Of a stretch of 64,000 nucleotides of DNA, positions 1 to 64,000 are shown in pieces. Position 1 is the first letter of the stretch. Every line of letters starts with the position of its first letter. Source of the DNA: Brachyhypopomus gauderio. Lineage: Eukaryota; Chordata; Actinopteri; Gymnotiformes; Hypopomidae. The notes beneath the pieces are model-generated. The model made no database searches. It worked only from the letters and a program-made list of their open reading frames with translations, and had not been told where the DNA came from. The stretch spans positions 1-64,000 of the forward strand of contig NW_027507056.1 of the NCBI RefSeq assembly GCF_052324685.1, given 5' to 3'. The position numbers and the translations under genes were made by a program.

Positions 1-58
1 TAGGTAGCGCGTCAGTCTCATAATCTGAAGGTCGTGAGTTCGACCCTCACACGGGGCA
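1..58 (+). tRNA. tRNA-Met-CAT: tRNA-Met(CAU), elongator, cut by window edge (unit 1)
   Basis: Only bases 16-73 of the gene lie in the window, from the D loop to the discriminator A. The CAU anticodon loop and the T arm match the full copies, and a T5 stop run for RNA polymerase III follows at 67-71. The missing first 15 bases are an edge effect, not a defect. Confidence 0.95.
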
Positions 59-641
59 GCAGAAGCTTTTTGAAAAGATTGACGAGCCCCCAAAAGATGC
101 TCAAACGCTCTTTCCTTATTCACTCGCATGCTGAGCACACCCCCTACCTGAAAATAGTATTGGCACATGACTCTTACAGGTCATCCCTAGTTGATTCAAG
201 CTGTGCTTTTTCTTTTGTAAATTCGCGTGTACACAGCAAGTTGTGTTGCATCCAATTCAATTCTCTCCACTGACCGTTCAGTCAATACCTTGATGGCGTC
301 TGTATTGACACCTCTACTGAGACATCAAGCTGCCTCTTTGGAGCATGTTTGCTCCCAGATCAAACTGCAGTGTCGTGGAGCCAACACAGAATAATGGACC
401 ACGTCGGACACTTTTCACTTTTGATTCTTTTTGATTCACTTTTGATGACACGCTTTTGAATACCTGATCACCTGGAATTGGTACCAGCTTGAAGTTAATA
501 GTGAGTAGACTTATGGAGATTCATTTATTTGAATTTTCTTCTCAAGCCATTTGCAACTCAGAAGCAATGACACTTGTGCACTCATCATTGAGCTTGAGGA
601 AGTCCAAGGAATTGATCTCTATGTTACTCTCGCTCCGCCGA
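59..641. other. Met-Ser spacer (unit 1 shown)
   Basis: 583 bp without a recognisable gene. It starts with the tRNA-Met stop run. Around 409-455 it holds a short run of imperfect copies of CACTTTTGATTC, and it ends in copy A of the direct repeat flanking tRNA-Ser. Three linked variants here separate two unit types: gtgtgcac/gtgtacac, gtttgctcc/gttcgctcc and tggagcc/tggtgcc. Confidence 0.8.
67..71 (+). terminator. Pol III stop run of tRNA-Met
   Basis: TTTTT starting 9 bases past the tRNA-Met 3' end, in the context AGCTTTTTGAAA. Present at the same distance in every unit. Five T in a row on the non-template strand is a sufficient vertebrate RNA polymerase III stop. Confidence 0.85.
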
Positions 642-723
642 GCTGCGATGGCCGAGAGGTTAAGGCGTTGGACTTGAAATCCAATGGGGTTTCCCCGCGC
701 AGGTTCGACTCCTGCTTGCAGCG
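642..723 (+). tRNA. tRNA-Ser-TGA: tRNA-Ser(UGA) (unit 1, reference copy)
   Basis: An 82 nt class II tRNA. Acceptor GCTGCGA pairs TTGCAGC. The anticodon loop CTTGAAA gives TGA, reading UCA codons. A long variable arm has the stem GGGG/CCCC, as expected for tRNA-Ser. The T arm contains the B box GGTTCGACTCC, and the discriminator is G. The A box region is TGGCCGAGAGG. No T4 run lies close behind; the first is 56 bases downstream at 779-782, after a hairpin at 745-768. The primary transcript should therefore have a trailer of about 55-60 nt, longer than its neighbours'. Confidence 0.98.
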
Positions 724-744
724 TGAGTGTCTTGTTGGGCGTGT

Positions 745-782
745 GGAAGAGAGAGTGTGCTCTCTTCCTGCTAGCCAGTTTT
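745..782 (+). terminator. Hairpin and pol III stop run of tRNA-Ser
   Basis: In unit 1, GGAAGAGAG (745-753) pairs perfectly with CTCTCTTCC (760-768) around the loop AGTGTG. The first T4 run follows at 779-782. Most other units have one more A in the left arm, which becomes a bulge. No T4 occurs between the gene and this point. Confidence 0.65.
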
Positions 783-876
783 AAATATGCTTCTCATGCC
801 ATTTGCAACTTTGTGCTGCCAAACTTTAGCAGTCCTAACTGATCCTGAAATAGTCCCAGGAATTGAGTTACAAATG

Positions 877-931
877 GCTGCTTCGTCGTTACAATGTGTT
901 GGCATGGAAATGCAGTGGGGTCTCTTGCAGC
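877..931 (+). pseudogene. Decayed tRNA-Ser relic, one per unit (unit 1 shown)
   Basis: The 55 bases begin GCTGC and end TTGCAGC, like the acceptor ends of the real tRNA-Ser. Between them is gttggcatggaaatgcagtg then GGGGTCTC, resembling the gene's gttggacttgaaatccaatg then GGGGTTTC. Everything from the variable arm to the T arm is missing, including the B box, so transcription is not expected. The upstream flank (789-876) also matches the real gene's upstream flank. Starts in units 1-32: 877, 2851, 4826, 6803, 8780, 10754, 12730, 14706, 16683, 18657, 20633, 22607, 24581, 26558, 28535, 30512, 32489, 34466, 36442, 38418, 40395, 42371, 44347, 46323, 48300, 50277, 52253, 54229, 57409, 59385, 61360, 63338. 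The relic call is inference; chance similarity within an old duplication is the alternative. Confidence 0.5.
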
Positions 932-1116
932 TTAGAGGATTAACTTGCCTCTCTAATGTGATTTGTGATGAGACCTTATGCCACCAGTGGGGAGAGCTTG
1001 CACTCACAGGTGCTTCATCCAAAGATCTTCATGCAACATAGCGATGTCTTGTTTCAGGTAAAAGAAAAAGTGCCACATTCTTTCATGGCCGGTCACTGGT
1101 TGCTCCGCCTTGCGCT

Positions 1117-1120
1117 AAAA
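1117..1120 (-). terminator. Pol III stop run of tRNA-Asp
   Basis: Plus-strand AAAA, read as TTTT on the tRNA-Asp strand, 7-10 bases past its 3' end. The same distance holds in all units. Confidence 0.82.
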
Positions 1121-1126
1121 GAGGGT

Positions 1127-1198
1127 CTCCCCGTCGGGGAATCGAACCCCGGTCTTCCGCGTGACAGGCGGAGATACTATCCACTATACTAACGAGGA
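1127..1198 (-). tRNA. tRNA-Asp-GTC: tRNA-Asp(GUC) (unit 1, reference copy)
   Basis: A 72 nt gene on the minus strand. Acceptor TCCTCGT pairs ACGGGGA, with discriminator G. The anticodon stem TCCGC/GCGGA encloses CTGTCAC, anticodon GTC, reading GAC and GAU. The A box is TAGTATAGTGG and the B box GGTTCGATTCC. On the minus strand the stop run TTTT lies 7-10 bases past the 3' end (plus-strand AAAA at 1117-1120). It is the only minus-strand gene of the unit, so it converges on tRNA-Ser and diverges from the next tRNA-Met. Confidence 0.98.
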
Positions 1199-1957
1199 CA
1201 CGTGCTGTGTCTCGCAGTGATGCTGAGTCAGGTGACGTGCACTTGTCCCCTTGATTTTAAAGTACTCTGAATCATTGTGCCTGCAAGGAGGTGGTAAAAA
1301 GAACACATTGTGGTGATATTGACTCACTGTTGCCACTCCTCTTTTACCATCGTCAGTTTGTGGACTTATGATAGGAAAACTCAAAGAATCTTGGTGACCT
1401 ACAGGTTTGATTCATCTGCCTTCCTAGTTAAGTCATGCGAACCATTTCCTGCAAAATTGGCTTTAGCTACATTGGCAATTCATTTTGTCTTCGTATTCCA
1501 GTGCATTGTACCGAACTGCAATATCCATCTTAGATCAACTGAGATTTTGCATTTCTCTCTTTCCCACATGCAAGTTCTGAATTTCTTGGCACACATTACT
1601 GCTTTGCATCTACTAAAAGCACTCCAGAGAAAGCTTCACTTCATACCTTCATGAGGTAGGTGTCGTTTGTACTTGTATTTTGGTGGTATTTTTGTTTTTT
1701 TTTGTTTGTGTGCGTTGTTTGTTTACTCTTGGAACATCCTGTGATTGGTTAGGGTAGGATTAGAGTTTAATTACGTTGGCCTCAGATTCTGGTTAATTCC
1801 AGGCTTCTTGTGCTAACCTTGTTGTTTGTTAGCTGTTGTTGCAGTAATTAGTTGCTGCAGGTGCACTTGCCGCCATGCTCCAAGGAGTGAATTGGGGGCG
1901 GATACATTTTTTCTCCAGCTTTGTTAGTTCTTCCTCAGCCTCGCTTCTTCTTTCCTA
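1199..1957. other. Asp-Met spacer (unit 1 shown)
   Basis: 759 bp between diverging tRNA-Asp and the next tRNA-Met. No gene is recognised. A 95-codon open frame recurs per unit but is unlike any family I know. A T tract (1695-1703, nine T here) within GT-rich sequence varies in length between units. Just before tRNA-Met, TTCCTCAGCCTCGCT (1931-1945) echoes TTTCCTAGCCTCGTT (1951-1965), which includes the gene start. Confidence 0.8.
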
Positions 1958-2030
1958 GCCTCGTTAGCGCAGTAGGTAGCGCGTCAGTCTCATAATCTGA
2001 AGGTCGTGAGTTCGACCCTCACACGGGGCA
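1958..2030 (+). tRNA. tRNA-Met-CAT: tRNA-Met(CAU), elongator type (unit 2, reference copy)
   Basis: A 73 nt gene with acceptor GCCTCGT pairing ACGGGGC, an anticodon loop reading CTCATAA (anticodon CAT), T arm GTGAG-TTCGACC-CTCAC, and discriminator A with no encoded CCA. The body matches the vertebrate elongator tRNA-Met as remembered. It differs from the initiator, which starts AGCAGAG and has an AUCGAAA-type T loop. The A box lies at TAGCGCAGTAGG and the B box at GAGTTCGACCC. Transcription should end at the T5 run 9-13 bases past the 3' end (2039-2043 here), so the trailer is short. In every unit it is the first gene, followed by tRNA-Ser on the same strand. Confidence 0.98.
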
Positions 2031-2612
2031 GCAGAAGCTTTTTGAAAAGATTGACGAGCCCCCAAAAGATGCTCAAACGCTCTTTCCTTATTCACTCGCA
2101 TGCTGAGCACACCCCCTACCTGAAAATAGTATTGGCACATGACTCTTACAGGTCATCCCTAGTTGATTCAAGCTGTGCTTTTTCTTTTGTAAATTCGCGT
2201 GTGCACAGCAAGTTGTGTTGCATCCAATTCAATTCTCTCCACTGACCGTTCAGTCAATACCTTGATGGCGTCTGTATTGACACCTCTACTGAGACATCAA
2301 GCTGCCTCTTTGGAGCATGTTTGCTCCCAGATCAAACTGCAGTGTCGTGGAGCCAACACAGAATAATGGACCACGTCGGACACTTTTCACTTTTGATTCT
2401 TTTGATTCACTTTTGATGACACGCTTTTGAATACCTGATCACCTGGAATTGGTACCAGCTTGAAGTTAATAGTGAGTAGACTTATGGAGATTCATTTATT
2501 TGAATTTTCTTCTCAAGCCATTTGCAACTCAGAAGCAATGACACTTGTGCACTCATCATTGAGCTTGAGGAAGTCCAAGGAATTGATCTCTATGTTACTC
2601 TCGCTCCGCCGA

Positions 2613-2694
2613 GCTGCGATGGCCGAGAGGTTAAGGCGTTGGACTTGAAATCCAATGGGGTTTCCCCGCGCAGGTTCGACTCCTGCTTGCAGCG
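2613..2694 (+). tRNA. tRNA-Ser-TGA: tRNA-Ser(UGA) (unit 2)
   Basis: Identical to the unit 1 gene at 642-723. Downstream, this unit has one extra C in the hairpin region, and the TTTT stop run begins 58 bases past the gene. Confidence 0.97.
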
Positions 2695-3099
2695 TGAGTG
2701 TCTTGTTGGGCGTGTGGAAAGAGAGAGTGTGCTCTCTTCCCTGCTAGCCAGTTTTAAATATGCTTCTCATGCCATTTGCAACTTTGTGCTGCCAAACTTT
2801 AGCAGTCCTAACTGATCCTGAAAATAGTCCCAGGAATTGAGTTACAAATGGCTGCTTCGTCGTTACAATGTGTTGGCATGGAAATGCAGTGGGGTCTCTT
2901 GCAGCTTAGAGGATTAACTTGCCTCTCTAATGTGATTTGTGATGAGACCTTATGCCACCAGTGGGGAGAGCTTGCACTCACAGGTGCTTCATCCAAAGAT
3001 CTTCATGCAACATAGCGATGTCTTGTTTCAGGTAAAAGAAAAAGTGCCACATCTTTCATGGCCGGTCACTGGTTGCTCCGCCTTGCGCTAAAAGAGGGT

Positions 3100-3171
3100 C
3101 TCCCCGTCGGGGAATCGAACCCCGGTCTTCCGCGTGACAGGCGGAGATACTATCCACTATACTAACGAGGA
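3100..3171 (-). tRNA. tRNA-Asp-GTC: tRNA-Asp(GUC) (unit 2)
   Basis: Same gene as at 1127-1198. Just 5' of it the plus strand reads gacacctgctgtggc, a variant shared with units 3, 7 and 8. Confidence 0.97.
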
Positions 3172-3933
3172 CACCTGCTGTGGCTCGCAGTGATGCTGAG
3201 TCAGGTGACGTGCACTTGTCCCCTTGATTTTAAAGTACTCTGAATCATTGTGCCTGCAAGGAGGTGGTAAAAAGAACACATTGTGGTGATATTGACTCAC
3301 TGTTGCCACTCCTCTTTTACCATCGTCAGTTTGTGGACTTATGATAGGAAAAACTCAAAGAATCTTGGTGACCTACAGGTTTGATTCATCTGCCTTCCTA
3401 GTTAAGTCATGCGAACCATTTGCTGCAAAATTGGCTTTAGCTACATTGGCAATTCATTTTGTCTTTGTATTCCAGTGCATTGTACCGAACTGCAATATCC
3501 ATCTTAGATCAACTGAGATTTTGCATTTCTCTCTTTCCCACATGCAAGTTCTGAATTTCTTGGCACACATTACTGCTTTGCATCTACTAAAAGCACTCCA
3601 GAGAAAGCTTCACTTCATACCTTCATGAGGTAGGTGTCGTTTGTACTTGTATTTTGGTGGTATTTTTGTTTTTTTTTTGTTTGTGTGCGTTGTTTGTTTA
3701 CTCTTGGAACATCCTGTGATTGGTTAGGGTAGGATTAGAGTTTAATTACGTTGGCCTCAGATTCTGGTTAATTCCAGGCTTCTTGTGCTAACCTTGTTGT
3801 TTGTTAGCTGTTGTTGGCAGTAATTAGTTGCTGCAGGTGCACTTGCCGCCATGCTCCAAGGAGTGAATTGGGGGCGGATACATTTTTTCTCCAGCTTTGT
3901 TAGTTCTTCCTCAGCCTCGCTTCTTCTTTCCTA

Positions 3934-4006
3934 GCCTCGTTAGCGCAGTAGGTAGCGCGTCAGTCTCATAATCTGAAGGTCGTGAGTTCGACCCTCACAC
4001 GGGGCA
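3934..4006 (+). tRNA. tRNA-Met-CAT: tRNA-Met(CAU) (unit 3)
   Basis: No change noticed against 1958-2030. Next tRNA-Met starts 1,977 bp on. Confidence 0.97.
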
Positions 4007-4589
4007 GCAGAAGCTTTTTGAAAAGATTGACGAGCCCCCAAAAGATGCTCAAACGCTCTTTCCTTATTCACTCGCATGCTGAGCACACCCCCTACCTGAA
4101 AATAGTATTGGCACATGACTCTTACAGGTCATCCCTAGTTGATTCAAGCTGTGCTTTTTCTTTTGTAAATTCGCGTGTGCACAGCAAGTTGTGTTGCATC
4201 CAATTCAATTCTCTCCACTGACCGTTCAGTCAATACCTTGATGGCGTCTGTATTGACACCTCTACTGAGACATCAAGCTGCCTCTTTGGAGCATGTTTGC
4301 TCCCAGATCAAACTGCAGTGTCGTGGAGCCAACACAGAATAATGGACCACGTCGGACACTTTTCACTTTTGATTCTTTTTGATTCACTTTTGATGACACG
4401 CTTTTGAATACCTGATCACCTGGAATTGGTACCAGCTTGAAGTTAATAGTGAGTAGACTTATGGAGATTCATTTATTTGAATTTTCTTCTCAAGCCATTT
4501 GCAACTCAGAAGCAATGACACTTGTGCACTCATCATTGAGCTTGAGGAAGTCCAAGGAATTGATCTCTATGTTACTCTCGCTCCGCCGA

Positions 4590-4671
4590 GCTGCGATGGC
4601 CGAGAGGTTAAGGCGTTGGACTTGAAATCCAATGGGGTTTCCCCGCGCAGGTTCGACTCCTGCTTGCAGCG
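4590..4671 (+). tRNA. tRNA-Ser-TGA: tRNA-Ser(UGA) (unit 3)
   Basis: Matches 642-723. Stop run TTTT at 4728-4731, one base further away than in unit 1, the spacing seen in most units. Confidence 0.97.
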
Positions 4672-5075
4672 TGAGTGTCTTGTTGGGCGTGTGGAAAGAG
4701 AGAGTGTGCTCTCTTCCTGCTAGCCAGTTTTAAATATGCTTCTCATGCCATTTGCAACTTTGTGCTGCCAAACTTTAGCAGTCCTAACTGATCCTGAAAT
4801 AGTCCCAGGAATTGAGTTACAAATGGCTGCTTCGTCGTTACAATGTGTTGGCATGGAAATGCAGTGGGGTCTCTTGCAGCTTAGAGGATTAACTTGCCTC
4901 TCTAATGTGATTTGTGATGAGACCTTATGCCACCAGTGGGGAGAGCTTGCACTCACAGGTGCTTCATCCAAAGATCTTCATGCAACATAGCGATGTCTTG
5001 TTTCAGGTAAAAGAAAAAGTGCCACATTCTTTCATGGCCGGTCACTGGTTGCTCCGCCTTGCGCTAAAAGAGGGT

Positions 5076-5147
5076 CTCCCCGTCGGGGAATCGAACCCCG
5101 GTCTTCCGCGTGACAGGCGGAGATACTATCCACTATACTAACGAGGA
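5076..5147 (-). tRNA. tRNA-Asp-GTC: tRNA-Asp(GUC) (unit 3)
   Basis: Matches the reference. Its 5' flank has the cctgctgtggc variant, as in units 2, 7 and 8. Confidence 0.97.
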
Positions 5148-5910
5148 CACCTGCTGTGGCTCGCAGTGATGCTGAGTCAGGTGACGTGCACTTGTCCCCT
5201 TGATTTTAAAGTACTCTGAATCATTGTGCCTGCAAGGAGGTGGTAAAAAGAACACATTGTGGTGATATTGACTCACTGTTGCCACTCCTCTTTTACCATC
5301 GTCAGTTTGTGGACTTATGATAGGAAAAACTCAAAGAATCTTGGTGACCTACAGGTTTGATTCATCTGCCTTCCTAGTTAAGTCATGCGAACCATTTGCT
5401 GCAAAATTGGCTTTAGCTACATTGGCAATTCATTTTGTCTTTGTATTCCAGTGCATTGTACCGAACTGCAATATCCATCTTAGATCAACTGAGATTTTGC
5501 ATTTCTCTCTTTCCCACATGCAAGTTCTGAATTTCTTGGCACACATTACTGCTTTGCATCTACTAAAAGCACTCCAGAGAAAGCTTCACTTCATACCTTC
5601 ATGAGGTAGGTGTCGTTTGTACTTGTATTTTGGTGGTATTTTTGTTTTTTTTTTTGTTTGTGTGCGTTGTTTGTCTACTCTTGGAACATCCTGTGATTGG
5701 TTAGGGTAGGATTAGAGTTTAATTACGTTGGCCTCAGATTCTGGTTAATTCCAGGCTTCTTGTGCTAACCTTGTTGTTTGTTAGCTGTTGTTGGCAGTAA
5801 TTAGTTGCTGCAGGTGCACTTGCCGCCATGCTCCAAGGAGTGAATTGGGGGCGGATACATTTTTTCTCCAGCTTTGTTAGTTCTTCCTCAGCCTCGCTTC
5901 TTCTTTCCTA

Positions 5911-5983
5911 GCCTCGTTAGCGCAGTAGGTAGCGCGTCAGTCTCATAATCTGAAGGTCGTGAGTTCGACCCTCACACGGGGCA
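5911..5983 (+). tRNA. tRNA-Met-CAT: tRNA-Met(CAU) (unit 4)
   Basis: Matches the reference. Unit length 1,977 bp. Confidence 0.97.
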
Positions 5984-6566
5984 GCAGAAGCTTTTTGAAA
6001 AGATTGACGAGCCCCCAAAAGATGCTCAAACGCTCTTTCCTTATTCACTCGCATGCTGAGCACACCCCCTACCTGAAAATAGTATTGGCACATGACTCTT
6101 ACAGGTCATCCCTAGTTGATTCAAGCTGTGCTTTTTCTTTTGTAAATTCGCGTGTACACAGCAAGTTGTGTTGCATCCAATTCAATTCTCTCCACTGACC
6201 GTTCAGTCAATATCTTGATGGCGTCTGTATTGACACCTCTACTGAGACATCAAGCTGCCTCTTTGGAGCATGTTCGCTCCCAGATCAAACTGCAGTGTCG
6301 TGGTGCCAACACAGAATAATGGACCACGTCGGACACTTTTCACTTTTGATTCTTTTTGATTCACTTTTGATGACACGCTTTTGAATACCTGATCACCTGG
6401 AATTGGTACCAGCTTGAAGTTAATAGTGAGTAGACTTATGGAGATTCATTTATTTGAATTTTCTTCTCAAGCCATTTGCAACTCAGAAGCAATGACACTT
6501 GTGCACTCATCATTGAGCTTGAGGAAGTCCAAGGAATTGATCTCTATGTTACTCTCGCTCCGCCGA

Positions 6567-6648
6567 GCTGCGATGGCCGAGAGGTTAAGGCGTTGGACTT
6601 GAAATCCAATGGGGTTTCCCCGCGCAGGTTCGACTCCTGCTTGCAGTG
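6567..6648 (+). tRNA. tRNA-Ser-TGA: tRNA-Ser(UGA), variant C81T (unit 4)
   Basis: One change: C81T in the last acceptor pair (6647), turning G1-C81 into a G-U wobble. The change lies in a CpG. The fold is otherwise intact and the gene could still work. Confidence 0.94.
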
Positions 6649-7052
6649 TGAGTGTCTTGTTGGGCGTGTGGAAAGAGAGAGTGTGCTCTCTTCCTGCTAG
6701 CCAGTTTTAAATATGCTTCTCATGCCATTTGCAACTTTGTGCTGCCAAACTTTAGCAGTCCTAACTGATCCTGAAATAGTCCCAGGAATTGAGTTACAAA
6801 TGGCTGCTTCGTCGTTACAATGTGTTGGCATGGAAATGCAGTGGGGTCTCTTGCAGCGTAGAGGATTAACTTGCCTCTCTAATGTGATTTGTGATGAGAC
6901 CTTATGCCACCAGTGGGGAGAGCTCGCACTCACAGGTGCTTCATCCAAAGATCTTCATGCAACATAGCGATGTCTTGTTTCAGGTAAAAGAAAAAGTGCC
7001 ACATTCTTTCATGGCCGGTCACTGGTTGCTCCGCCTTGCGCTAAAAGAGGGT

Positions 7053-7124
7053 CTCCCCGTCGGGGAATCGAACCCCGGTCTTCCGCGTGACAGGCGGAGA
7101 TACTATCCACTATACTAACGAGGA
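7053..7124 (-). tRNA. tRNA-Asp-GTC: tRNA-Asp(GUC) (unit 4)
   Basis: Matches the reference. The spacer beyond it carries the caagtttgatt and catgcaaacc variants, seen again in units 22, 25 and 31. Confidence 0.97.
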
Positions 7125-7887
7125 CACGTGCTGTGTCTCGCAGTGATGCTGAGTCAGGTGACGTGCACTTGTCCCCTTGATTTTAAAGTACTCTGAATCA
7201 TTGTGCCTGCAAGGAGGTGGTAAAAAGAACACATTGTGGTGATATTGACTCACTGTTGCCACTCCTCTTTTACCATCGTCAGTTTGTGGACTTATGATAG
7301 GAAAAACTCAAAGAATCTTGGTGACCTACAAGTTTGATTCATCTGCCTTCCTAGTTAAGTCATGCAAACCATTTGCTGCAAAATTGGCTTTAGCTACATT
7401 GGCAATTCATTTTGTCTTCGTATTCCAGTGCATTGTACCGAACTGCAATATCCATCTTAGATCAACTGAGATTTTGCATTTCTCTCTTTCCCACATGCAA
7501 GTTCTGAATTTCTTGGCACACATTACTGCTTTGCATCTACTAAAAGCACTCCAGAGAAAGCTTCACTTCATACCTTCATGAGGTAGGTGTCGTTTGTACT
7601 TGTATTTTGGTGGTATTTTTGTTTTTTTTTTTGTTTGTGTGCGTTGTTTGTCTACTCTTGGAACATCCTGTGATTGGTTAGGGTAGGATTAGAGTTTAAT
7701 TACGTTGGCCTCAGATTCTGGTTAATTCCAGGCTTCTTGTGCTAACCTTGTTGTTTGTTAGCTGTTGTTGGCAGTAATTAGTTGCTGCAGGTGCACTTGC
7801 CGCCATGCTCCAAGGAGTGAATTGGGGGCGGATACATTTTTTCTCCAGCTTTGTTAGTTCTTCCTCAGCCTCGCTTCTTCTTTCCTA

Positions 7888-7960
7888 GCCTCGTTAGCGC
7901 AGTAGGTAGCGCGTCAGTCTCATAATCTGAAGGTCGTGAGTTCGACCCTCACACGGGGCA
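7888..7960 (+). tRNA. tRNA-Met-CAT: tRNA-Met(CAU) (unit 5)
   Basis: Matches the reference. Unit length 1,974 bp because of the 3 bp loss in the Asp-Met spacer. Confidence 0.97.
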
Positions 7961-8543
7961 GCAGAAGCTTTTTGAAAAGATTGACGAGCCCCCAAAAGAT
8001 GCTCAAACGCTCTTTCCTTATTCACTCGCATGCTGAGCACACCCCCTACCTGAAAATAGTATTGGCACATGACTCTTACAGGTCATCCCTAGTTGATTCA
8101 AGCTGTGCTTTTTCTTTTGTAAATTCGCGTGTACACAGCAAGTTGTGTTGCATCCAATTCAATTCTCTCCACTGACCGTTCAGTCAATATCTTGATGGCG
8201 TCTGTATTGACACCTCTACTGAGACATCAAGCTGCCTCTTTGGAGCATGTTCGCTCCCAGATCAAACTGCAGTGTCGTGGTGCCAACACAGAATAATGGA
8301 CCACGTCGGACACTTTTCACTTTTGATTCTTTTTGATTCACTTTTGATGACACGCTTTTGAATACCTGATCACCTGGAATTGGTACCAGCTTGAAGTTAA
8401 TAGTGAGTAGACTTATGGAGATTCATTTATTTGAATTTTCTTCTCAAGCCATTTGCAACTCAGAAGCAATGACACTTGTGCACTCATCATTGAGCTTGAG
8501 GAAGTCCAAGGAATTGATCTCTATGTTACTCTCGCTCCGCCGA

Positions 8544-8625
8544 GCTGCGATGGCCGAAAGGTTAAGGCGTTGGACTTGAAATCCAATGGGGTTTCCCCGC
8601 GCAGGTTCGACTCCTGCTTGCAGCG
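8544..8625 (+). tRNA. tRNA-Ser-TGA: tRNA-Ser(UGA), variant G15A (unit 5)
   Basis: G15A in the D loop (8558), also within the A box. The position stays a purine, so folding should survive. The same change is found only in unit 9 (16447-16528), marking those units as recent copies of each other. Confidence 0.94.
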
Positions 8626-53336: not shown

Positions 53337-53409
53337 GCCTCGTTAGCGCAGTAGGTAGCGCGTCAGTCTCATAATCTGAAGGTCGTGAGTTCGACCCTCA
53401 CACGGGGCA
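53337..53409 (+). tRNA. tRNA-Met-CAT: tRNA-Met(CAU) (unit 28)
   Basis: Matches the reference. The next tRNA-Met is 3,180 bp on because of the insertion. Confidence 0.97.
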
Positions 53410-53992
53410 GCAGAAGCTTTTTGAAAAGATTGACGAGCCCCCAAAAGATGCTCAAACGCTCTTTCCTTATTCACTCGCATGCTGAGCACACCCCCTACCT
53501 GAAAATAGTATTGGCACATGACTCTTACAGGTCATCCCTAGTTGATTCAAGCTGTGCTTTTTCTTTTGTAAATTCGCGTGTACACAGCAAGTTGTGTTGC
53601 ATCCAATTCAATTCTCTCCACTGACCGTTCAGTCAATACCTTGATGGCGTCTGTATTGACACCTCTACTGAGACATCAAGCTGCCTCTTTGGAGCATGTT
53701 CGCTCCCAGATCAAACTGCAGTGTCGTGGAGCCAACACAGAATAATGGACCACGTCGGACACTTTTCACTTTTGATTCTTTTTGATTCACTTTTGATGAC
53801 ACGCTTTTGAATACCTGATCACCTGGAATTGGTACCAGCTTGAAGTTAATAGTGAGTAGACTTATGGAGATTCATTTATTTGAATTTTCTTCTCAAGCCA
53901 TTTGCAACTCAGAAGCAATGACACTTGTGCACTCATCATTGAGCTTGAGGAAGTCCAAGGAATTGATCTCTATGTTACTCTCGCTCCGCCGA

Positions 53993-54074
53993 GCTGCGAT
54001 GGCCGAGAGGTTAAGGCGTTGGACTTGAAATCCAATGGGGTTTCCCTGCGCAGGTTCGACTCCTGCTTGCAGCG
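53993..54074 (+). tRNA. tRNA-Ser-TGA: tRNA-Ser(UGA), variant C55T (unit 28)
   Basis: C55T (54047) in the variable arm turns the G45-C55 pair into a wobble; the change is in a CpG. The rest is unchanged. Confidence 0.94.
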
Positions 54075-54478
54075 TGAGTGTCTTGTTGGGCGTGTGGAAA
54101 GAGAGAGTGTGCTCTCTTCCTGCTAGCCAGTTTTAAATATGCTTCTCATGCCATTTGCAACTTTGTGCTGCCAAACTTTAGCAGTCCTAACTGATCCTGA
54201 AATAGTCCCAGGAATTGAGTTACAAATGGCTGCTTCGTCGTTACAATGTGTTGGCATGGAAATGCAGTGGGGTCTCTTGCAGCTTAGAGGATTAACTTGC
54301 CTCTCTAATGTGATTTGTGATGAGACCTTATGCCACCAGTGGGGAGAGCTTGCACTCACAGGTGCTTCATCCAAAGATCTTCATGCAACATAGCGATGTC
54401 TTGTTTCAGGTAAAAGAAAAAGTGCCACATTCTTTCATGGCCGGTCACTGGTTGCTCCGCCTTGCGCTAAAAGAGGGT

Positions 54479-54550
54479 CTCCCCGTCGGGGAATCGAACC
54501 CCGGTCTTCCGCGTGACAGGCGGAGATACTATCCACTATACTAACGAGGA
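54479..54550 (-). tRNA. tRNA-Asp-GTC: tRNA-Asp(GUC) (unit 28)
   Basis: Matches the reference. The inserted DNA starts 63 bp beyond its 5' end. Confidence 0.97.
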
Positions 54551-54639
54551 CACGTGCTGTGTCTCGCAGTGATGCTGAGTCAGGTGACGTGCACTTGTCC
54601 CCTTGATTTTAACCCTATTATGCAGAAGCGCCCCCTAGT

Positions 54640-54657
54640 GGGCCCGCCGGCGGGCCC
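54640..54657. repeat. 18 bp perfect GC palindrome near the insert's left end
   Basis: GGGCCCGCCGGCGGGCCC equals its own reverse complement. It sits 27 bp inside the insert end, in a subterminal position where transposons often carry inverted motifs. Confidence 0.8.
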
Positions 54658-55127
54658 AGCTCCTTTACGGCGATATAAAACATATTAAACATTAATGAAT
54701 CTCCGAACAAAAGCGCTTAAATCAAAATTTCCTATCCCATCTACATGCCTACCGAGTTTCAGCCGTCTACGTGCAGCCGATCGCGAGATATCCGGCTTTG
54801 AAGTTGACCACAAAAGTGCACCCCGCGAGGGGGTCTCCCGACATATCCGTTTACAAAACATATTTATGTTGTGAAATGTCTTAATGTTTTGTCACCTAAA
54901 AATCGTTTACTAATAAGGCTTTAATTTAAGACCTTAACAGCGTAGATCCGTTGTGGTTAAGTACCTTAAAAAGCTTGCTCACCTCACTGCAAAATTTTCC
55001 AAAATCCGCTTCCTGAATGAGACACTCCGACAAATCTGCCCCCTAAGCGTCACAGAAGCATTCTTAACGCTGATTTGACCCCTCATTACAAAGCTGCAGC
55101 GGTTCTGCTTTGATTTGAGTGGTTTTT

Positions 55128-55617
55128 ATTGGTCTAAAGTGGGGTAGTGACTTTGAATGACAGGTTTTACAACCTCTCCCACGGCGAGGTGCGAAGGGGA
55201 GGGGGGGAGGGTGAACCAATAAGCCCACAGAGACAAGCTGGCGCCTCAGAAGTGATTGAAAGCTGTTCTAACCAATAGTGTACATCCTTCCGAAGCTAAC
55301 CAGCCCTCATATGACATGATTGGTCAAGTATATTTTTAAATTGAGCCCTCGGAAACTGGCGCTTCATTTCCAATTTCGGCCGCTAGCATAGCAACATAAG
55401 CTAACCCTTTGCTAACCTAAGCTAAGCTCCCCAGAACACACTGTTCGGCGAAACTGAAGCAGCCATGGATTATTTTGTTCGTTTTTATGCGGATTGTGGA
55501 TACTTTTGAACATAAACGGATTACTTTGTGTGGAATATATGAGCAATTTTCGGAATTTTCGCCAACCCGGAAGTGAGACGGTACACCGGCTACGACGCGA
55601 TTCTACGTACTGTGAGT
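55128..55617 (+). promoter_or_regulatory. Promoter-like stretch in the insert with candidate splice donor
   Basis: Four CCAAT or ATTGG motifs (55128-55132, 55216-55220, 55272-55276, 55319-55323) are followed by an ETS-type CCGGAAGT at 55567-55574. A strong splice-donor match GTGAGT lies at 55612-55617. Together they resemble the promoter and first exon of a polymerase II gene, perhaps the element's own lost transposase or a captured host fragment. No coding exon follows within the window, so this is only suggestive. Confidence 0.35.
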
Positions 55618-56386
55618 AACAATGGATAATTTTTCATAAGCGATATTGTACAAAATATATATTCTAATACTAAACATTAACTAAGCGTTAGATTATAAAC
55701 AGTTTTAGAGCGTTTGAGTGCTGCAGCACTCTGTATCGTGTCGGATGCTACCGGAGTTGGCTACGGTAACCTAGCTTATGCTGTCGGACTATATTGGACA
55801 TAAATATGATATCATAACGTTCATATTTGGACATGAAATTTAGTCATTGGAATTTTCTGGTCTTGCTGTAATATGTGCAGCATTGTTGTTTGTCGTAGCT
55901 CCTCGGTTTCGTGTAAGGAATTTGTTGGCATGTTAGCTTAGTTGGCTAATGGTGTGTGTCGGGTGTGGCATATTTAGACATGGGTGTGGTGCACTTGACA
56001 TACCTTGGATAAAGCTGAATAACTTTTCAATGCTTGCATGGATTTGCTCCATTTTTTCTGTGTTGTTAGAAAAGACCCTAGCGAAATTTATTGTAATTTC
56101 TGATACCACATTTGAATAACTGTGAATATACATTCCAGTCATGTTCAAGTTCAAGTCAGCATTTGTGACATTCCTGGCATATTAGCATCTGCAATAGAGG
56201 CTCTAAAATAAACCAAATTATGTGAATATGATACTGAAGTGTATTAATATGTTCCCCCAACTGCCTACTTCAGTTTGAGCCATGAATGATAATTTTCCTA
56301 TATGTACAACTTGAGATATCTAGTTTTAATGTGAACTATGTCAAAAATGTTAAAAATGGCCACCAGGCGTGCGAATCTGCAGTATA
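55618..56386. other. AT-rich right part of the insert, no gene seen
   Basis: About 770 bp of AT-rich sequence with no convincing open frame. A 73-codon frame on the minus strand (55933-56154) shows no known motif. If the donor at 55612 is real, this would be intron. Confidence 0.6.
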
Positions 56387-56516
56387 TGAATCATTGTGCC
56401 TGCAAGGAGGTGGCTGCAGGTGCACTTGCCGCCATGCTCCAAGGAGTGAATTGGGGGCGGATACATTTTTTCTCCAGCTTTGTTAGTTCTTCCTCAGCCT
56501 CGCTTCTTCTTTCCTA

Positions 56517-56589
56517 GCCTCGTTAGCGCAGTAGGTAGCGCGTCAGTCTCATAATCTGAAGGTCGTGAGTTCGACCCTCACACGGGGCA
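56517..56589 (+). tRNA. tRNA-Met-CAT: tRNA-Met(CAU) (unit 29)
   Basis: Matches the reference. Only 103 bp of normal leader (56414-56516) survive upstream, so this copy shows whether far-upstream spacer matters for expression. Confidence 0.97.
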
Positions 56590-57172
56590 GCAGAAGCTTT
56601 TTGAAAAGATTGACAAGCCCCCAAAAGATGCTCAAACGCTCTTTCCTTATTCACTCGCATGCTGAGCACACCCCCTACCTGAAAATAGTATTGGCACATG
56701 ACTCTTACAGGTCATCCCTAGTTGATTCAAGCTGTGCTTTTTCTTTTGTAAATTCGCGTGTACACAGCAAGTTGTGTTGCATCCAATTCAATTCTCTCCA
56801 CTGACCGTTCAGTCAATACCTTGTTGGCGTCTGTATTGACACCTCTACTGAGACATCAAGCTGCCTCTTTGGAGCATGTTCGCTCCCAGATCAAACTGCA
56901 GTGTCGTGGTGCCAACACAGAATAATGGACCACGTCGGACACTTTTCACTTTTGATTCTTTTTGATTCACTTTTGATGACACGCTTTTGAATACCTGATC
57001 ACTTGGAATTGGTACCAGCTTGAAGTTAATAGTGAGTAGACTTATGGAGATTCATTTATTTGAATTTTCTTCTCAAGCCATTTGCAACTCAGAAGCAATG
57101 ACACTTGTGCACTCATCATTGAGCTTGAGGAAGTCCAAGGAATTGATCTCTATGTTACTCTCGCTCCGCCGA

Positions 57173-57254
57173 GCTGCGATGGCCGAGAGGTTAAGGCGTT
57201 GGACTTGAAATCCAATGGGGTTTCCCCGCGCAGGTTCGACTCCTGCTTGCAGCG
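57173..57254 (+). tRNA. tRNA-Ser-TGA: tRNA-Ser(UGA) (unit 29)
   Basis: Matches the reference copy. Confidence 0.97.
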
Positions 57255-57658
57255 TGAGTGTCTTGTTGGGCGTGTGGAAAGAGAGAGTGTGCTCTCTTCC
57301 TGCTAGCCAGTTTTAAATATGCTTCTCATGCCATTTGCAACTTTGTGCTGCCAAACTTTAGCAGTCCTAACTGATCCTGAAATAGTCCCAGGAATTGAGT
57401 TACAAATGGCTGCTTTGTCGTTACAATGTGTTGGCATGGAAATGCAGTGGGGTCTCTTGCAGCGTAGAGGATTAACTTGCCTCTCTAATGTGATTTGTGA
57501 TGAGACCTTATGCCACCAGTGGGGAGAGCTTGCACTCACAGGTGCTTCATCCAAAGATCTTCATGCAACATAGCGATGTCTTGTTTCAGGTAAAAGAAAA
57601 AGTGCCACATTCTTTCATGGCCGGTCACTGGTTGCTCCGCCTTGCGCTAAAAGAGGGT

Positions 57659-57730
57659 CTCCCCGTCGGGGAATCGAACCCCGGTCTTCCGCGTGACAGG
57701 CGGAGATACTATCCACTATACTAACGAGGA
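57659..57730 (-). tRNA. tRNA-Asp-GTC: tRNA-Asp(GUC) (unit 29)
   Basis: Matches the reference copy. Confidence 0.97.
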
Positions 57731-58492
57731 CACGTGCTGTGTCTCGCAGTGATGCTGAGTCAGGTGACGTGCACTTGTCCCCTTGATTTTAAAGTACTCT
57801 GAATCATTGTGCCTGCAAGGAGGTGGTAAAAAGAACACATTGTGGTGATATTGACTCACTGTTGCCACTCCTCTTTTACCATCATCAGTTTGTGGACTTA
57901 TGATAGGAAAAACTCAAAGAATCTTGGTGACCTACAGGTTTGATTCATCTGCCTTCCTAGTTAAGTCATGCGAACCATTTGCTGCAAAATTGGCTTTAGC
58001 TACATTGGCAATTCATTTTGTCTTCGTATTCCAGTGCATTGTACCGAACTGCAATATCCATCTTAGATCAACTGAGATTTTGCATTTCTCTCTTTCCCAC
58101 ATGCAAGTTCTGAATTTCTTGGCACACATTACTGCTTTGCATCTACTAAAAGCACTCCAGAGAAAGCTTCACTTCATACCTTCATGAGGTAGCTGTCGTT
58201 TGTACTTGTATTTTGGTGGTATTTTTGTTTTTTTTTTGTTTGTGTGCGTTGTTTGTCTACTCTTGGAACATCCTGTGATTGGTTAGGGTAGGATTAGAGT
58301 TTAATTACGTTGGCCTCAGATTCTGGTTAATTCCAGGCTTCTTGTGCTAACCTTGTTGTTTGTTAGCTGTTGTTGGCAGTAATTAGTTGCTGCAGGTGCA
58401 CTTGCCGCCATGCTCCAAGGAGTGAATTGGGGGCGGATACATTTTTTCTCCAGCTTTGTTAGTTCTTCCTCAGCCTCGCTTCTTCTTTCCTA

Positions 58493-58565
58493 GCCTCGTT
58501 AGCGCAGTAGGTAGCGCGTCAGTCTCATAATCTGAAGGTCGTGAGTTCGACCCTCACACGGGGCA
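58493..58565 (+). tRNA. tRNA-Met-CAT: tRNA-Met(CAU) (unit 30)
   Basis: Matches the reference. Unit length 1,975 bp, one T short in the tacattttt run near 60,416. Confidence 0.97.
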
Positions 58566-59148
58566 GCAGAAGCTTTTTGAAAAGATTGACGAGCCCCCAA
58601 AAGATGCTCAAACGCTCTTTCCTTATTCACTCGCATGCTGAGCACACCCCCTACCTGAAAATAGTATTGGCACATGACTCTTACAGGTCATCCCTAGTTG
58701 ATTCAAGCTGTGCTTTTTCTTTTGTAAATTCGCGTGTACACAGCAAGTTGTGTTGCATCCAATTCAATTCTCTCCACTGACCGTTCAGTCAATACCTTGA
58801 TGGCGTCTGTATTGACACCTCTACTGAGACATCAAGCTGCCTCTTTGGAGCATGTTCGCTCCCAGATCAAACTGCAGTGTCGTGGTGCCAACACAGAATA
58901 ATGGACCACGTCGGACACTTTTCACTTTTGATTCTTTTTGATTCACTTTTGATGACACGCTTTTGAATACCTGATCACCTGGAATTGGTACCAGCTTGAA
59001 GTTAATAGTGAGTAGACTTATGGAGATTCATTTATTTGAATTTTCTTCTCAAGCCATTTGCAACTCAGAAGCAATGACACTTGTGCACTCATCATTGAGC
59101 TTGAGGAAGTCCAAGGAATTGATCTCTATGTTACTCTCGCTCCGCCGA

Positions 59149-59230
59149 GCTGCGATGGCCGAGAGGTTAAGGCGTTGGACTTGAAATCCAATGGGGTTTC
59201 CCCGCGCAGGTTCGACTCCTGCTTGCAGCG
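59149..59230 (+). tRNA. tRNA-Ser-TGA: tRNA-Ser(UGA) (unit 30)
   Basis: Matches the reference copy. Confidence 0.97.
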
Positions 59231-59634
59231 TGAGTGTCTTGTTGGGCGTGTGGAAAGAGAGAGTGTGCTCTCTTCCTGCTAGCCAGTTTTAAATATGCTT
59301 CTCATGCCATTTGCAACTTTGTGCTGCCAAACTTTAGCAGTCCTAACTGATCCTGAAATAGTCCCAGGAATTGAGTTACAAATGGCTGCTTCGTCGTTAC
59401 AATGTGTTGGCATGGAAATGCAGTGGGGTCTCTTGCAGCGTAGAGGATTAACTTGCCTCTCTAATGTGATTTGTGATGAGACCTTATGCCACCAGTGGGG
59501 AGAGCTCGCACTCACAGGTGCTTCATCCAAAGATCTTCATGCAACATAGCGATGTCTTGTTTCAGGTAAAAGAAAAAGTGCCACATTCTTTCATGGCCGG
59601 TCACTGGTTGCTCCGCCTTGCGCTAAAAGAGGGT

Positions 59635-59706
59635 CTCCCCGTCGGGGAATCGAACCCCGGTCTTCCGCGTGACAGGCGGAGATACTATCCACTATACTAA
59701 CGAGGA
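59635..59706 (-). tRNA. tRNA-Asp-GTC: tRNA-Asp(GUC) (unit 30)
   Basis: Matches the reference copy. Confidence 0.97.
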
Positions 59707-60467
59707 CACGTGCTGTGTCTCGCAGTGATGCTGAGTCAGGTGACGTGCACTTGTCCCCTTGATTTTAAAGTACTCTGAATCATTGTGCCTGCAAGGAGGT
59801 GGTAAAAAGAACACATTGTGGTGATATTGACTCACTGTTGCCACTCCTCTTTTACCATCGTCAGTTTGTGGACTTATGATAGGAAAAACTCAAAGAATCT
59901 TGGTGACCTACAGGTTTGATTCATCTGCCTTCCTAGTTAAGTCATGCAAACCATTTGCTGCAAAATTGGCTTTAGCTACATTGGCAATTCATTTTGTCTT
60001 TGTATTCCAGTGCATTGTACCGAACTGCAATATCCATCTTAGATCAACTGAGATTTTGCATTTCTCTCTTTCCCACATGCAAGTTCTGAATTTCTTGGCA
60101 CACATTACTGCTTTGCATCTACTAAAAGCACTCCAGAGAAAGCTTCACTTCATACCTTCATGAGGTAGGTGTCGTTTGTACTTGTATTTTGGTGGTATTT
60201 TTGTTTTTTTTTTGTTTGTGTGCGTTGTTTGTCTACTCTTGGAACATCCTGTGATTGGTTAGGGTAGGATTAGAGTTTAATTACGTTGGCCTCAGATTCT
60301 GGTTAATTCCAGGCTTCTTGTGCTAACCTTGTTGTTTGTTAGCTGTTGTTGGCAGTAATTAGTTGCTGCAGGTGCACTTGCCGCCATGCTCCAAGGAGTG
60401 AATTGGGGGCGGATACATTTTTCTCCAGCTTTGTTAGTTCTTCCTCAGCCTCGCTTCTTCTTTCCTA

Positions 60468-60540
60468 GCCTCGTTAGCGCAGTAGGTAGCGCGTCAGTCT
60501 CATAATCTGAAGGTCGTGAGTTCGACCCTCACATGGGGCA
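60468..60540 (+). tRNA. tRNA-Met-CAT: tRNA-Met(CAU), variant C67T (unit 31)
   Basis: C67T (60534) makes the G6-C67 acceptor pair a wobble; CpG change. Likely still functional. Unit length 1,978 bp. Confidence 0.94.
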
Positions 60541-61123
60541 GCAGAAGCTTTTTGAAAAGATTGACGAGCCCCCAAAAGATGCTCAAACGCTCTTTCCTTA
60601 TTCACTCGCATGCTGAGCACACCCCCTACCTGAAAATAGTATTGGCACATGACTCTTACAGGTCATCCCTAGTTGATTCAAGCTGTGCTTTTTCTTTTGT
60701 AAATTCGCGTGTACACAGCAAGTTGTGTTGCATCCAATTCAATTCTCTCCACTGACCGTTCAGTCAATATCTTGATGGCGTCTGTATTGACACCTCTACT
60801 GAGACATCAAGCTGCCTCTTTGGAGCATGTTCGCTCCCAGATCAAACTGCAGTGTCGTGGTGCCAACACAGAATAATGGACCACGTCGGACACTTTTCAC
60901 TTTTGATTCTTTTTGATTCACTTTTGATGACACGCTTTTGAATACCTGATCACCTGGAATTGGTACCAGCTTGAAGTTAATAGTGAGTAGACTTATGGAG
61001 ATTCATTTATTTGAATTTTCTTCTCAAGCCATTTGCAACTCAGAAGCAATGACACTTGTGCACTCATCATTGAGCTTGAGGAAGTCCAAGGAATTGATCT
61101 CTATGTTACTCTCGCTCCGCCGA

Positions 61124-61205
61124 GCTGCGATGGCCGAGAGGTTAAGGCGTTGGACTTGAAATCCAATGGGGTTTCCCCGCGCAGGTTCGACTCCTGCTTG
61201 CAGCG
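61124..61205 (+). tRNA. tRNA-Ser-TGA: tRNA-Ser(UGA) (unit 31)
   Basis: Matches the reference copy. Confidence 0.97.
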
Positions 61206-61609
61206 TGAGTGTCTTGTTGGGCGTGTGGAAAGAGAGAGTGTGCTCTCTTCCTGCTAGCCAGTTTTAAATATGCTTCTCATGCCATTTGCAACTTTGTGCT
61301 GCCAAACTTTAGCAGTCCTAACTGATCCTGAAATAGTCCCAGGAATTGAGTTACAAATGGCTGCTTCGTCGTTACAATGTGTTGGCATGGAAATGCAGTG
61401 GGGTCTCTTGCAGCGTAGAGGATTAACTTGCCTCTCTAATGTGATTTGTGATGAGACCTTATGCCACCAGTGGGGAGAGCTCGCACTCACAGGTGCTTCA
61501 TCCAAAGATCTTCATGCAACATAGCGATGTCTTGTTTCAGGTAAAAGAAAAAGTGCCACATTCTTTCATGGCCGGTCACTGGTTGCTCCGCCTTGCGCTA
61601 AAAGAGGGT

Positions 61610-61681
61610 CTCCCCGTCGGGGAATCGAACCCCGGTCTTCCGCGTGACAGGCGGAGATACTATCCACTATACTAACGAGGA
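61610..61681 (-). tRNA. tRNA-Asp-GTC: tRNA-Asp(GUC) (unit 31)
   Basis: Matches the reference copy. Confidence 0.97.
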
Positions 61682-62445
61682 CACGTGCTGTGTCTCGCAG
61701 TGATGCTGAGTCAGGTGACGTGCACTTGTCCCCTTGATTTTAAAGTACTCTGAATCATTGTGCCTGCAAGGAGGTGGTAAAAAGAACACATTGTGGTGAT
61801 ATTGACTCACTGTTGCCACTCCTCTTTTACCATCGTCAGTTTGTGGACTTATGATAGGAAAAACTCAAAGAATCTTGGTGACCTACAAGTTTGATTCATC
61901 TGCCTTCCTAGTTAAGTCATGCAAACCATTTGCTGCAAAATTGGCTTTAGCTACATTGGCAATTCATTTTGTCTTCGTATTCCAGTGCATTGTACCGAAC
62001 TGCAATATCCATCTTAGATCAACTGAGATTTTGCATTTCTCTCTTTCCCACATGCAAGTTCTGAATTTCTTGGCACACATTACTGCTTTGCATCTACTAA
62101 AAGCACTCCAGAGAAAGCTTCACTTCATACCTTCATGAGGTAGGTGTCGTTTGTACTTGTATTTTGGTGGTGTTTTTGTTTTTTTTTTTTGTTTGTGTGC
62201 GTTTTTTGTCTACTCTTGGAACATCCTGTGATTGGTTAGGGTAGGATTAGAGTTTAATTACGTTGGCCTCAGATTCTGGTTAATTCCAGGCTTCTTGTGC
62301 TAACCTTGTTGTTTGTTAGCTGTTGTTGGCAGTAATTAGTTGCTGCAAGTGCACTTGCCGCCATGCTCCAAGGAGTGAATTGGGGGCGGATACATTTTTT
62401 CTCCAGCTTTGTTAGTTCTTCCTCAGCCTCGCTTCTTCTTTCCTA

Positions 62446-62518
62446 GCCTCGTTAGCGCAGTAGGTAGCGCGTCAGTCTCATAATCTGAAGGTCGTGAGTT
62501 CGACCCTCACACGGGGCA
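62446..62518 (+). tRNA. tRNA-Met-CAT: tRNA-Met(CAU) (unit 32)
   Basis: Matches the reference. The spacer after it has a private gtgtacagagc. Confidence 0.97.
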
Positions 62519-63101
62519 GCAGAAGCTTTTTGAAAAGATTGACGAGCCCCCAAAAGATGCTCAAACGCTCTTTCCTTATTCACTCGCATGCTGAGCACAC
62601 CCCCTACCTGAAAATAGTATTGGCACATGACTCTTACAGGTCATCCCTAGTTGATTCAAGCTGTGCTTTTTCTTTTGTAAATTCGCGTGTACAGAGCAAG
62701 TTGTGTTGCATCCAATTCAATTCTCTCCACTGACCGTTCAGTCAATACCTTGATGGCGTCTGTATTGACACCTCTACTGAGACATCAAGCTGCCTCTTTG
62801 GAGCATGTTCGCTCCCAGATCAAACTGCAGTGTCGTGGAGCCAACACAGAATAATGGACCACGTCGGACACTTTTCACTTTTGATTCTTTTTGATTCACT
62901 TTTGATGACACGCTTTTGAATACCTGATCACCTGGAATTGGTACCAGCTTGAAGTTAATAGTGAGTAGACTTATGGAGATTCATTTATTTGAATTTTCTT
63001 CTCAAGCCATTTGCAACTCAGAAGCAATGACACTTGTGCACTCATCATTGAGCTTGAGGAAGTCCAAGGAATTGATCTCTATGTTACTCTCGCTCCGCCG
63101 A

Positions 63102-63183
63102 GCTGCGATGGCCGAGAGGTTAAGGCGTTGGACTTGAAATCCAATGGGGTTTCCCCGCGCAGGTTCGACTCCTGCTTGCAGCG
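63102..63183 (+). tRNA. tRNA-Ser-TGA: tRNA-Ser(UGA) (unit 32)
   Basis: Matches the reference copy. Confidence 0.97.
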
Positions 63184-63587
63184 TGAGTGTCTTGTTGGGC
63201 GTGTGGAAAGAGAGAGTGTGCTCTCTTCCTGCTAGCCAGTTTTAAATATGCTTCTCATGCCATTTGCAACTTTGTGCTGCCAAACTTTAGCAGTCCTAAC
63301 TGATCCTGAAATAGTCCCAGGAATTGAGTTACAAATGGCTGCTTCGTCGTTACAATGTGTTGGCATGGAAATGCAGTGGGGTCTCTTGCAGCTTAGAGGA
63401 TTAACTTGCCTCTCTAATGTGATTTGTGATGAGACCTTATGCCACCAGTGGGGAGAGCTTGCACTCACAGGTGCTTCATCCAAAGATCTTCATGCAACAT
63501 AGCGATGTCTTGTTTCAGGTAAAAGAAAAAGTGCCACATTCTTTCATGGCCGGTCACTGGTTGCTCCGCCTTGCGCTAAAAGAGGGT

Positions 63588-63659
63588 CTCCCCGTCGGGG
63601 AATCGAACCCCGGTCTTCCGCGTGACAGGCGGAGATACTATCCACTATACTAACGAGGA
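63588..63659 (-). tRNA. tRNA-Asp-GTC: tRNA-Asp(GUC) (unit 32)
   Basis: Matches the reference; last gene in the window. Confidence 0.97.
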
Positions 63660-64000
63660 CACGTGCTGTGTCTCGCAGTGATGCTGAGTCAGGTGACGTG
63701 CACTTGTCCCCTTGATTTTAAAGTACTCTGAATCATTGTGCCTGCAAGGAGGTGGTAAAAAGAACACATTGTGGTGATATTGACTCACTGTTGCCACTCC
63801 TCTTTTACCATCGTCAGTTTGTGGACTTATGATAGGAAAAACTCAAAGAATCTTGGTGACCTACAGGTTTGATTCATCTGCCTTCCTAGTTAAGTCATGC
63901 GAACCATTTCCTGCAAAATTGGCTTTAGCTACATTGGCAATTCATTTTGTCTTCGTATTCCAGTGCATTGTACTGAACTGCAATATCCATCTTAGATCAA

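Follow-up and report, generated by a model that had tools for sequence, protein, structure and literature searches.

A subtelomeric tandem array of Met, Ser and Asp tRNA genes in Brachyhypopomus gauderio and its possible role in tRNA supply

Introduction

What use is a chromosome end in which the same three tRNA genes are repeated hundreds of times? The question is raised by the first 64,000 nucleotides of contig NW_027507056.1 of the gymnotiform fish Brachyhypopomus gauderio (assembly GCF_052324685.1), the whole of which we call the window, and which the original prediction, made from the letters alone, described as an array of tRNA genes for Met(CAU), Ser(UGA) and Asp(GUC). We find that the array is subtelomeric, that its three-tRNA unit is repeated hundreds of times, and that it belongs to an already known kind, the vertebrate multi-gene tRNA tandem array of Xenopus and zebrafish: a unit of at least two different tRNA genes in head-to-tail repetition at high copy, tRNA folds with likely terminators (distant in the case of Ser), and a likeness between units that is kept by turnover are all present. 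As to its use, we hold with about even confidence that some 468 kb of homogenised units would serve as a template for RNA polymerase III (Pol III) in the manner of ribosomal DNA (rDNA) or 5S arrays, mainly in oogenesis and partly in the soma.

Results

Three tRNA genes recur in fixed order

In the window, ARAGORN identified 95 complete tRNA genes, comprising 31 Met(CAU) and 32 Ser(UGA) genes on the + strand and 32 Asp(GUC) genes on the − strand; the 96th is a Met gene truncated by the window start (positions 1-58), and all 96, the cut Met included, reach the gathering score of the Rfam tRNA family (RF00005). Gene order and orientation (Met +, Ser +, Asp −) are constant throughout, and 29 of the 30 Met-to-Met intervals span 1,974-1,978 bp, the remaining one 3,180 bp. 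The gene calls thus agree with the original prediction of 96 tRNA genes in 64 kb, fixed in order and orientation at a period of about 1,976 bp, and both window edges do lie within the array, the left one being also the start of the contig. The unit and its genes are laid out as follows.

1..64000, no strand: slice of the tandem array, with 30 complete Met-to-Met units and part of a unit at each edge; all array except one insert
1958..2030, + strand: predicted elongator tRNA-Met(CAU), first complete copy of 31 (ARAGORN; 66.8 bits to RF00005; 29 of 31 identical)
2613..2694, + strand: tRNA-Ser(UGA), one of 32 (ARAGORN; 62.9 bits to RF00005; 27 of 32 identical)
3100..3171, − strand: tRNA-Asp(GUC) with a U27-A43 pair, one of 32 (ARAGORN; 57.5 bits to RF00005; 29 of 32 identical)
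53337..56516, + strand: 3,180-bp unit retaining all three tRNA genes, with an insert and lacking some 560 bp of spacer (consensus 1311-1869)

The mean pairwise identity of 99.5% among the 29 ordinary window units, over about 1,980 columns, rules out chance as the source of the repeat, and 85 of the 95 complete genes match their consensus exactly. The single 3,180-bp spacing is explained by the insertion and deletion combined in that one unit (unit 27). With 8 mismatches in 17 positions to a zebrafish initiator probe, and what we take to be near identity with the vertebrate elongator tRNA-Met, the Met gene is predicted to be of the elongator type. No RNA family other than tRNA occurs among the 96 Rfam gathering-level matches in the window, and over positions 1-4,200 every Rfam match at E values up to 1 is likewise to tRNA. 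Two records of a phage collection share one short stretch (54 query bases) resembling the start of the Met gene, and one spacer 21-mer had no match in viral_contigs.

Runs of T that could end Pol III transcription stand close behind the Met and Asp genes, and only at +56 to +58 behind Ser.

2039..2043, + strand: T5 run, likely to end Pol III transcription of Met, 9 nt past the gene in 31 of 31 complete window copies
3090..3093, − strand: T4 run, likely to end Pol III transcription of Asp, 7 nt past the gene in 32 of 32 window copies
2752..2755, + strand: nearest T4 run behind Ser, at a distance of 56-58 nt from the gene in all 32 window copies

Since Ser has no close T run, a long trailer or a different terminator is to be expected. 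The Ser trailer at window positions 2,695-2,755, which is also present in the unit consensus, includes a hairpin-like stretch, GGAAAGAGAG...CTCTCTTCC.

The array extends over about 468 kb to a chromosome end

The assembly comprises 796.5 Mb in 840 contigs, about 20 of them of chromosome size (C20 measures 14.9 Mb, C22 only 4.2 Mb), and the window forms the opening 64 kb of a contig of 172,500 bp, here C212. Across C212 ARAGORN identifies 73 Met genes and 74 each of Ser and Asp; the Met number includes one copy broken by a transposon and leaves out the one cut at position 1. The array stops at 152,883, where it adjoins a 36-bp (TTAGGG)6 tract, and the remainder of the contig (C212:152,885-172,500) is made up of GC-rich satellite families, including a 240-bp repeat in 17 copies and a 172-bp repeat in 8, followed by a terminal 2.57 kb of GGGTTA repeats that run to the contig end with (TTAGGG)n oriented outwards. 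We read this terminus as the chromosome end, and the TTAGGG tract at the point where the array halts raises the possibility that the array border is an old chromosome end. Two parts of this flank (L010 and L011) contain no Rfam gathering-level match. The start of another chromosome-sized contig (C20:1-600) resembles one of the flank satellites, with 75-91% identity over short stretches.

The inner side of the array was traced with an exact spacer 24-mer, which occurs 360 times genome-wide, always in the same direction; 68 copies are on C212, and the places among the matches listed all fall on contig C3 at 41,667,230-41,937,838, near the end of its 41,981,624 bp. At its terminus C3 matches C212:5-14,078 over 14,078 bases, with 8 gaps and not one mismatch in 14,080 columns; the alternative registers among those listed have at least 26 mismatches. 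On the strength of this overlap we take C212 to carry C3 on to the telomere; another haplotype of this chromosome end would give nearly the same picture. The inner boundary lies at C3:41,652,361. Nothing resembling a unit stands in the 4.6 kb preceding it, and the order from there is a truncated inverted unit, an interrupted copy of a Dada-like transposon (described below) and then the forward array. The array thus totals about 468 kb, inserts included, with about 329 kb on C3, whose mid part is known only through the pattern places listed, and 139 kb on C212; array copies, including those behind the 360 spacer 24-mers and the 544 Asp cores given below, are possibly counted twice through the overlap or through haplotypes.

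Units are kept alike by local exchange

The 65 full-length units of C212 comprise 52 distinct sequences, with a mean difference of 11.9 in 1,981 columns (nucleotide diversity, pi, 0.006). This contradicts the scenario that had been named as fatal to the original prediction, in which the assembler multiplied a single unit. Neighbours among the 65 differ by 9.3 as against the mean of 11.9, the lowest value in 2,000 shuffled orders being 10.6; two blocks of four units reappear three or four positions further on, no unit differing from its counterpart by more than 2, and inside the window units 8-9 are the same as units 4-5. Furthermore, five short units of 1,660-1,661 bp share a common spacer deletion (C212:121,060-124,380, 126,357-129,677 and 137,578-139,237). 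Similar 1,660-bp steps are seen on C3 at 41,763,010-41,852,129 among the Asp-core matches listed.

Together these features have the pattern expected of local exchange of several units at a time, and not of an assembler copying one unit. An assembly artefact in which one or a few units were multiplied is hardly credible: the contig does begin inside the array and the 14-kb overlap between C3 and C212 was left unmerged, which makes the exact copy number uncertain and may have led to some copies being counted twice, but the distinct units, their patterned sharing, two different inserts, the five short units and the terminal telomere all speak against it. We rejected it on the distinct units, the patterned sharing, the short units and the agreement of C3 with C212 over their overlap.

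Genes and spacer differ in CpG decay

Exact agreement with the consensus is retained by 176 of the 221 C212 genes (Met 60 of 73, Ser 59 of 74, Asp 57 of 74). Among the 29 window units (unit 27 excluded), CpG positions account for 16 of 46 substituted sites, corresponding to about tenfold higher odds of substitution than at other positions, and the observed/expected ratio of CpG is 0.43 in the spacer and 0.87-1.32 in the genes (with the Ser bounds one base off). The CpG bias of the variation together with the depleted spacer suggests that the array may be CpG-methylated in the germ line much of the time.

To compare genes with their surroundings, 64 C212 units were used, leaving out the short units, unit 27, the edges and the unit adjacent to a transposon, the last because its Met start is part transposon. 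Variable sites are about equally frequent inside and outside the genes, both at CpG positions (13 of 44 vs 21 of 74) and at other positions (9 of 183 vs 49 of 1,675); with the transposon-adjacent unit included, non-CpG variable sites are in excess in the genes (11 of 183, p 0.043). The gene variants are rarer among units than the others (one-sided p 0.011; 0.026 for CpG sites alone and 0.071 for other sites alone, the sites not being independent), and pi at CpG sites alone is 0.019 in genes and 0.049 outside. In our reading, individual copies mutate freely, and turnover together with some selection preserves the consensus.

The array-type Asp core is abundant, and a C27-G43 type was not found at up to 1 mismatch

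A 28-mer from the core of the array-type Asp gene has 544 exact copies in the genome, of which 540 share a strand and 4 lie on the opposite one, and those placed within the array are the C212 copies and the C3 copies among the matches listed. The first place listed is C3:41,666,491, which, if the matches stand in contig order, means that there are none on C1, C2 or the rest of C3. The array Asp gene shows 1 mismatch in 15 to the zebrafish Asp-GUC-2 probe and 3 in 15 to Asp-GUC-1, and it differs from a stickleback small RNA by one substitution and a 4-nt gap. An Asp type with a C27-G43 pair has 0 genome copies, either exact over 52 bases or with at most 1 mismatch over 28, in a search that did not seek divergent types; its query took C27 from the zebrafish Asp-GUC-1 probe and the remainder from the human gene. 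Since this type was not found at up to 1 mismatch, the array-type Asp genes are probably required in more than the egg: judged by these searches, they would have to work in the soma unless the four odd-strand copies or more divergent genes serve the body. The array Ser gene differs at 3 of 25 positions from the probe for Ser-UGA-19, which is expressed late in zebrafish (PMC11574265).

Two inserts interrupt the array on C212

The insert in unit 27 is the one part of the window that is not array.

54613..56380, no strand: insert of roughly 1,768 bp immediately behind a TTAA, with left end CCCTATTATGCAGAAG; resembles a TTAA-type DNA transposon

The left end of this insert reads CCCTAT, the right end seems truncated, and the longest open frame is 82 aa. 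Near the left end lies CCACTAGGGGGCGC, the only match in the window to a CTCF core pattern, with a chance mean of 0.68.

A second element, of 7,240 bp (C212:76,289-83,528), begins 12 kb beyond the window and sits in the A box of one Met gene, flanked on both sides by TTGGCGC, which occupies tRNA positions 7-13; the normal array gene has TTAGCGC there. It encodes a DUF6729 protein (E 5e-90), with cysteine motifs seen by eye. Dada elements, which have been surveyed in ray-finned fish, include Dada-tN and Dada-tR, which target TGGCGC at tRNA nt 8-13, and target replacement on insertion has been described for other Dada lineages (PMC8869645); they measure 4,666-10,979 bp, and their DDE transposase is flanked by zinc fingers of the CCCC and CCHC types (PMC3706591). 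Duplicated targets of 6-7 bp, often at tRNA nt 8-13, mark this family, and (T)TGGCGC is found here on both sides of the element in the Met gene. We call the element Dada-like, and DUF6729 presumably belongs to Dada. Such an element, the TTAGGG ends, the number of chromosome-sized contigs and the likeness of the Asp gene to zebrafish and stickleback sequences would all be in keeping with a ray-finned fish. A second Dada-like copy, interrupted, is the one at the inner edge of the array (C3 ~41,654,485-41,665,327). The likeness to Dada thus concerns the 7,240-bp element, an inserted guest, and not the array.

Discussion

By analogy, supply of the egg and early embryo would be the best-supported use of the array. 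In zebrafish, egg and early-embryo isodecoders are encoded in repetitive regions (PMC11417395), the large tRNA clusters on chromosomes 4, 8 and 3 are almost completely CpG-methylated in early embryos, and copy number does not predict tRNA level, most predicted genes looking inactive in early embryos (PMC11574265); in Xenopus, arrayed oocyte-specific tRNA genes are switched on when the zygotic genome becomes active (PMC11500080). The likeness to multi-gene arrays of frogs and zebrafish that had been drawn at the outset holds (PMC11417395, PMC11500080, PMC2888827). We propose that the array would act like rDNA or 5S arrays as a high-dosage Pol III template, that through much of the germ line it would stay methylated and inaccessible, and that it would open for the build-up of large tRNA stocks, most probably in oogenesis. 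As the searches revealed no second common Asp(GUC) type, some array-type copies would supply the soma as well.

Several observations weigh against this proposal. An oocyte and embryo role, as the original prediction suggested, fits zebrafish and may apply here, but the missing C27-G43 Asp type is a difficulty for it, and the available text of PMC11417395 leaves unsaid whether Asp-GTC-1 or Asp-GTC-2 of zebrafish is the early form. The stickleback small RNA, which comes from brain, derives from a U27 Asp gene (PMC3637797), so the U27 isodecoder is no egg marker. Across all sites, pi in genes (0.0058) is no lower than in spacer (0.0048), which speaks against strong constraint. Finally, the matches listed on C3 and C212 place less than half of the 544 Asp copies. 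A strictly egg-only role for the array Asp isodecoder was dropped in view of the stickleback brain U27 stretch and the C27-G43 type not found here.

Among the other explanations, constitutive housekeeping, in which most Asp(GUC) genes and perhaps those for Met and Ser(UGA) are arrayed in rDNA fashion and used in all tissues with no link to the egg, is unlikely. The 544 exact Asp cores, the failure to find a C27-G43 type and the stickleback brain RNA (PMC3637797) favour it; however, the four opposite-strand copies could suffice for the soma, Asp genes unlike both query patterns would escape the search, and the CpG decay suggests a methylated, mostly closed array. That same decay, as a sign of germline methylation, also speaks for the improbable alternative of selfish or neutral expansion, likewise raised in the original prediction, by which a satellite spread through unequal exchange with its tRNA genes incidental and most copies silent. 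The subtelomeric satellite setting suits such a satellite, as do variant sites equally frequent in genes and the non-CpG excess there when the transposon-adjacent unit is counted, but this alternative sits poorly with a consensus retained by 176 of 221 genes, with the lower frequency of gene variants, with CpG retained in genes and depleted in spacer, and with the lack of an alternative common Asp type. A structural role, with the tRNA genes acting mainly as a boundary or chromosome-end element, is very improbable: the position is subtelomeric, and a CTCF-binding human tRNA tandem repeat at 1q23.3 has been implicated in boundary function (PMC4041453), but ordinary units here have no match to the CTCF core pattern at up to 1 mismatch, the sole window match lying in the insert. 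On this ground the CTCF or boundary role was set aside.

The proposed Pol III template can be taken one step further. It is possible, although we think it doubtful, that tRNA-Asp supply as a whole is organised like rDNA in this species, with nearly all functional Asp genes, and perhaps those for Ser(UGA) and elongator Met, in subtelomeric arrays, so that an egg-type array feeds the body and equal dosage of the three is locked in. If array-type genes were indeed nearly the sole source of tRNA-Asp, the picture of silent arrays and active dispersed genes would fail in this species. The locus offers a multi-gene tRNA array with both borders visible, the inner edge and the chromosome end, together with gene-targeting transposons and marked unit variants; with these variants, tRNA-seq could tell apart the copies that egg, embryo and body draw on, something still to be settled for the zebrafish arrays. 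Literature searches on tRNA arrays yielded no description of a Met-Ser-Asp unit, which is not proof of its absence from print.

Among known systems, the Xenopus laevis 3.18-kb repeat likewise has several different tRNA genes per unit, in tandem and at high copy, but it holds eight genes per unit against three here and differs in composition. Entamoeba arrays have short spacers and contain nearly all tRNA genes, and the Arabidopsis SYY cluster is much smaller than the array described here. SYY, from a plant, shares with it tandem tRNA genes of more than one kind, here for Ser and Tyr; these are highly methylated and silent in most tissues, though put to use in certain cells (PMC12308677). Entamoeba, which also has its tRNA genes in tandem arrays, is a distant protist (PMC2888827). 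The human 1q23.3 locus is again a tandem repeat with tRNA genes and variable copy number, but its unit is a GC-rich, CTCF-binding 7.3 kb present 9-43 times per allele (PMC4041453). Within fishes, tRNA tandem arrays also lie near the end of blue catfish chromosome 14 (PMC10071708), and the clustered share of tRNA genes is 87% in stickleback and 65% in zebrafish (PMC2888827). The zebrafish clusters, on the long arm of chromosome 4 and elsewhere, are similarly high-copy and mixed; they are CpG-methylated and encode egg and embryo isodecoders (PMC11417395, PMC11574265, PMC11075544). In Danio, adjacent pairs are nearly all parallel, with K-N, K-S and R-T the commonest (PMC2888827); unlike in zebrafish, the B. 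gauderio array is built from a single regular three-gene unit, is subtelomeric, and sets Asp in opposition to Met and Ser.

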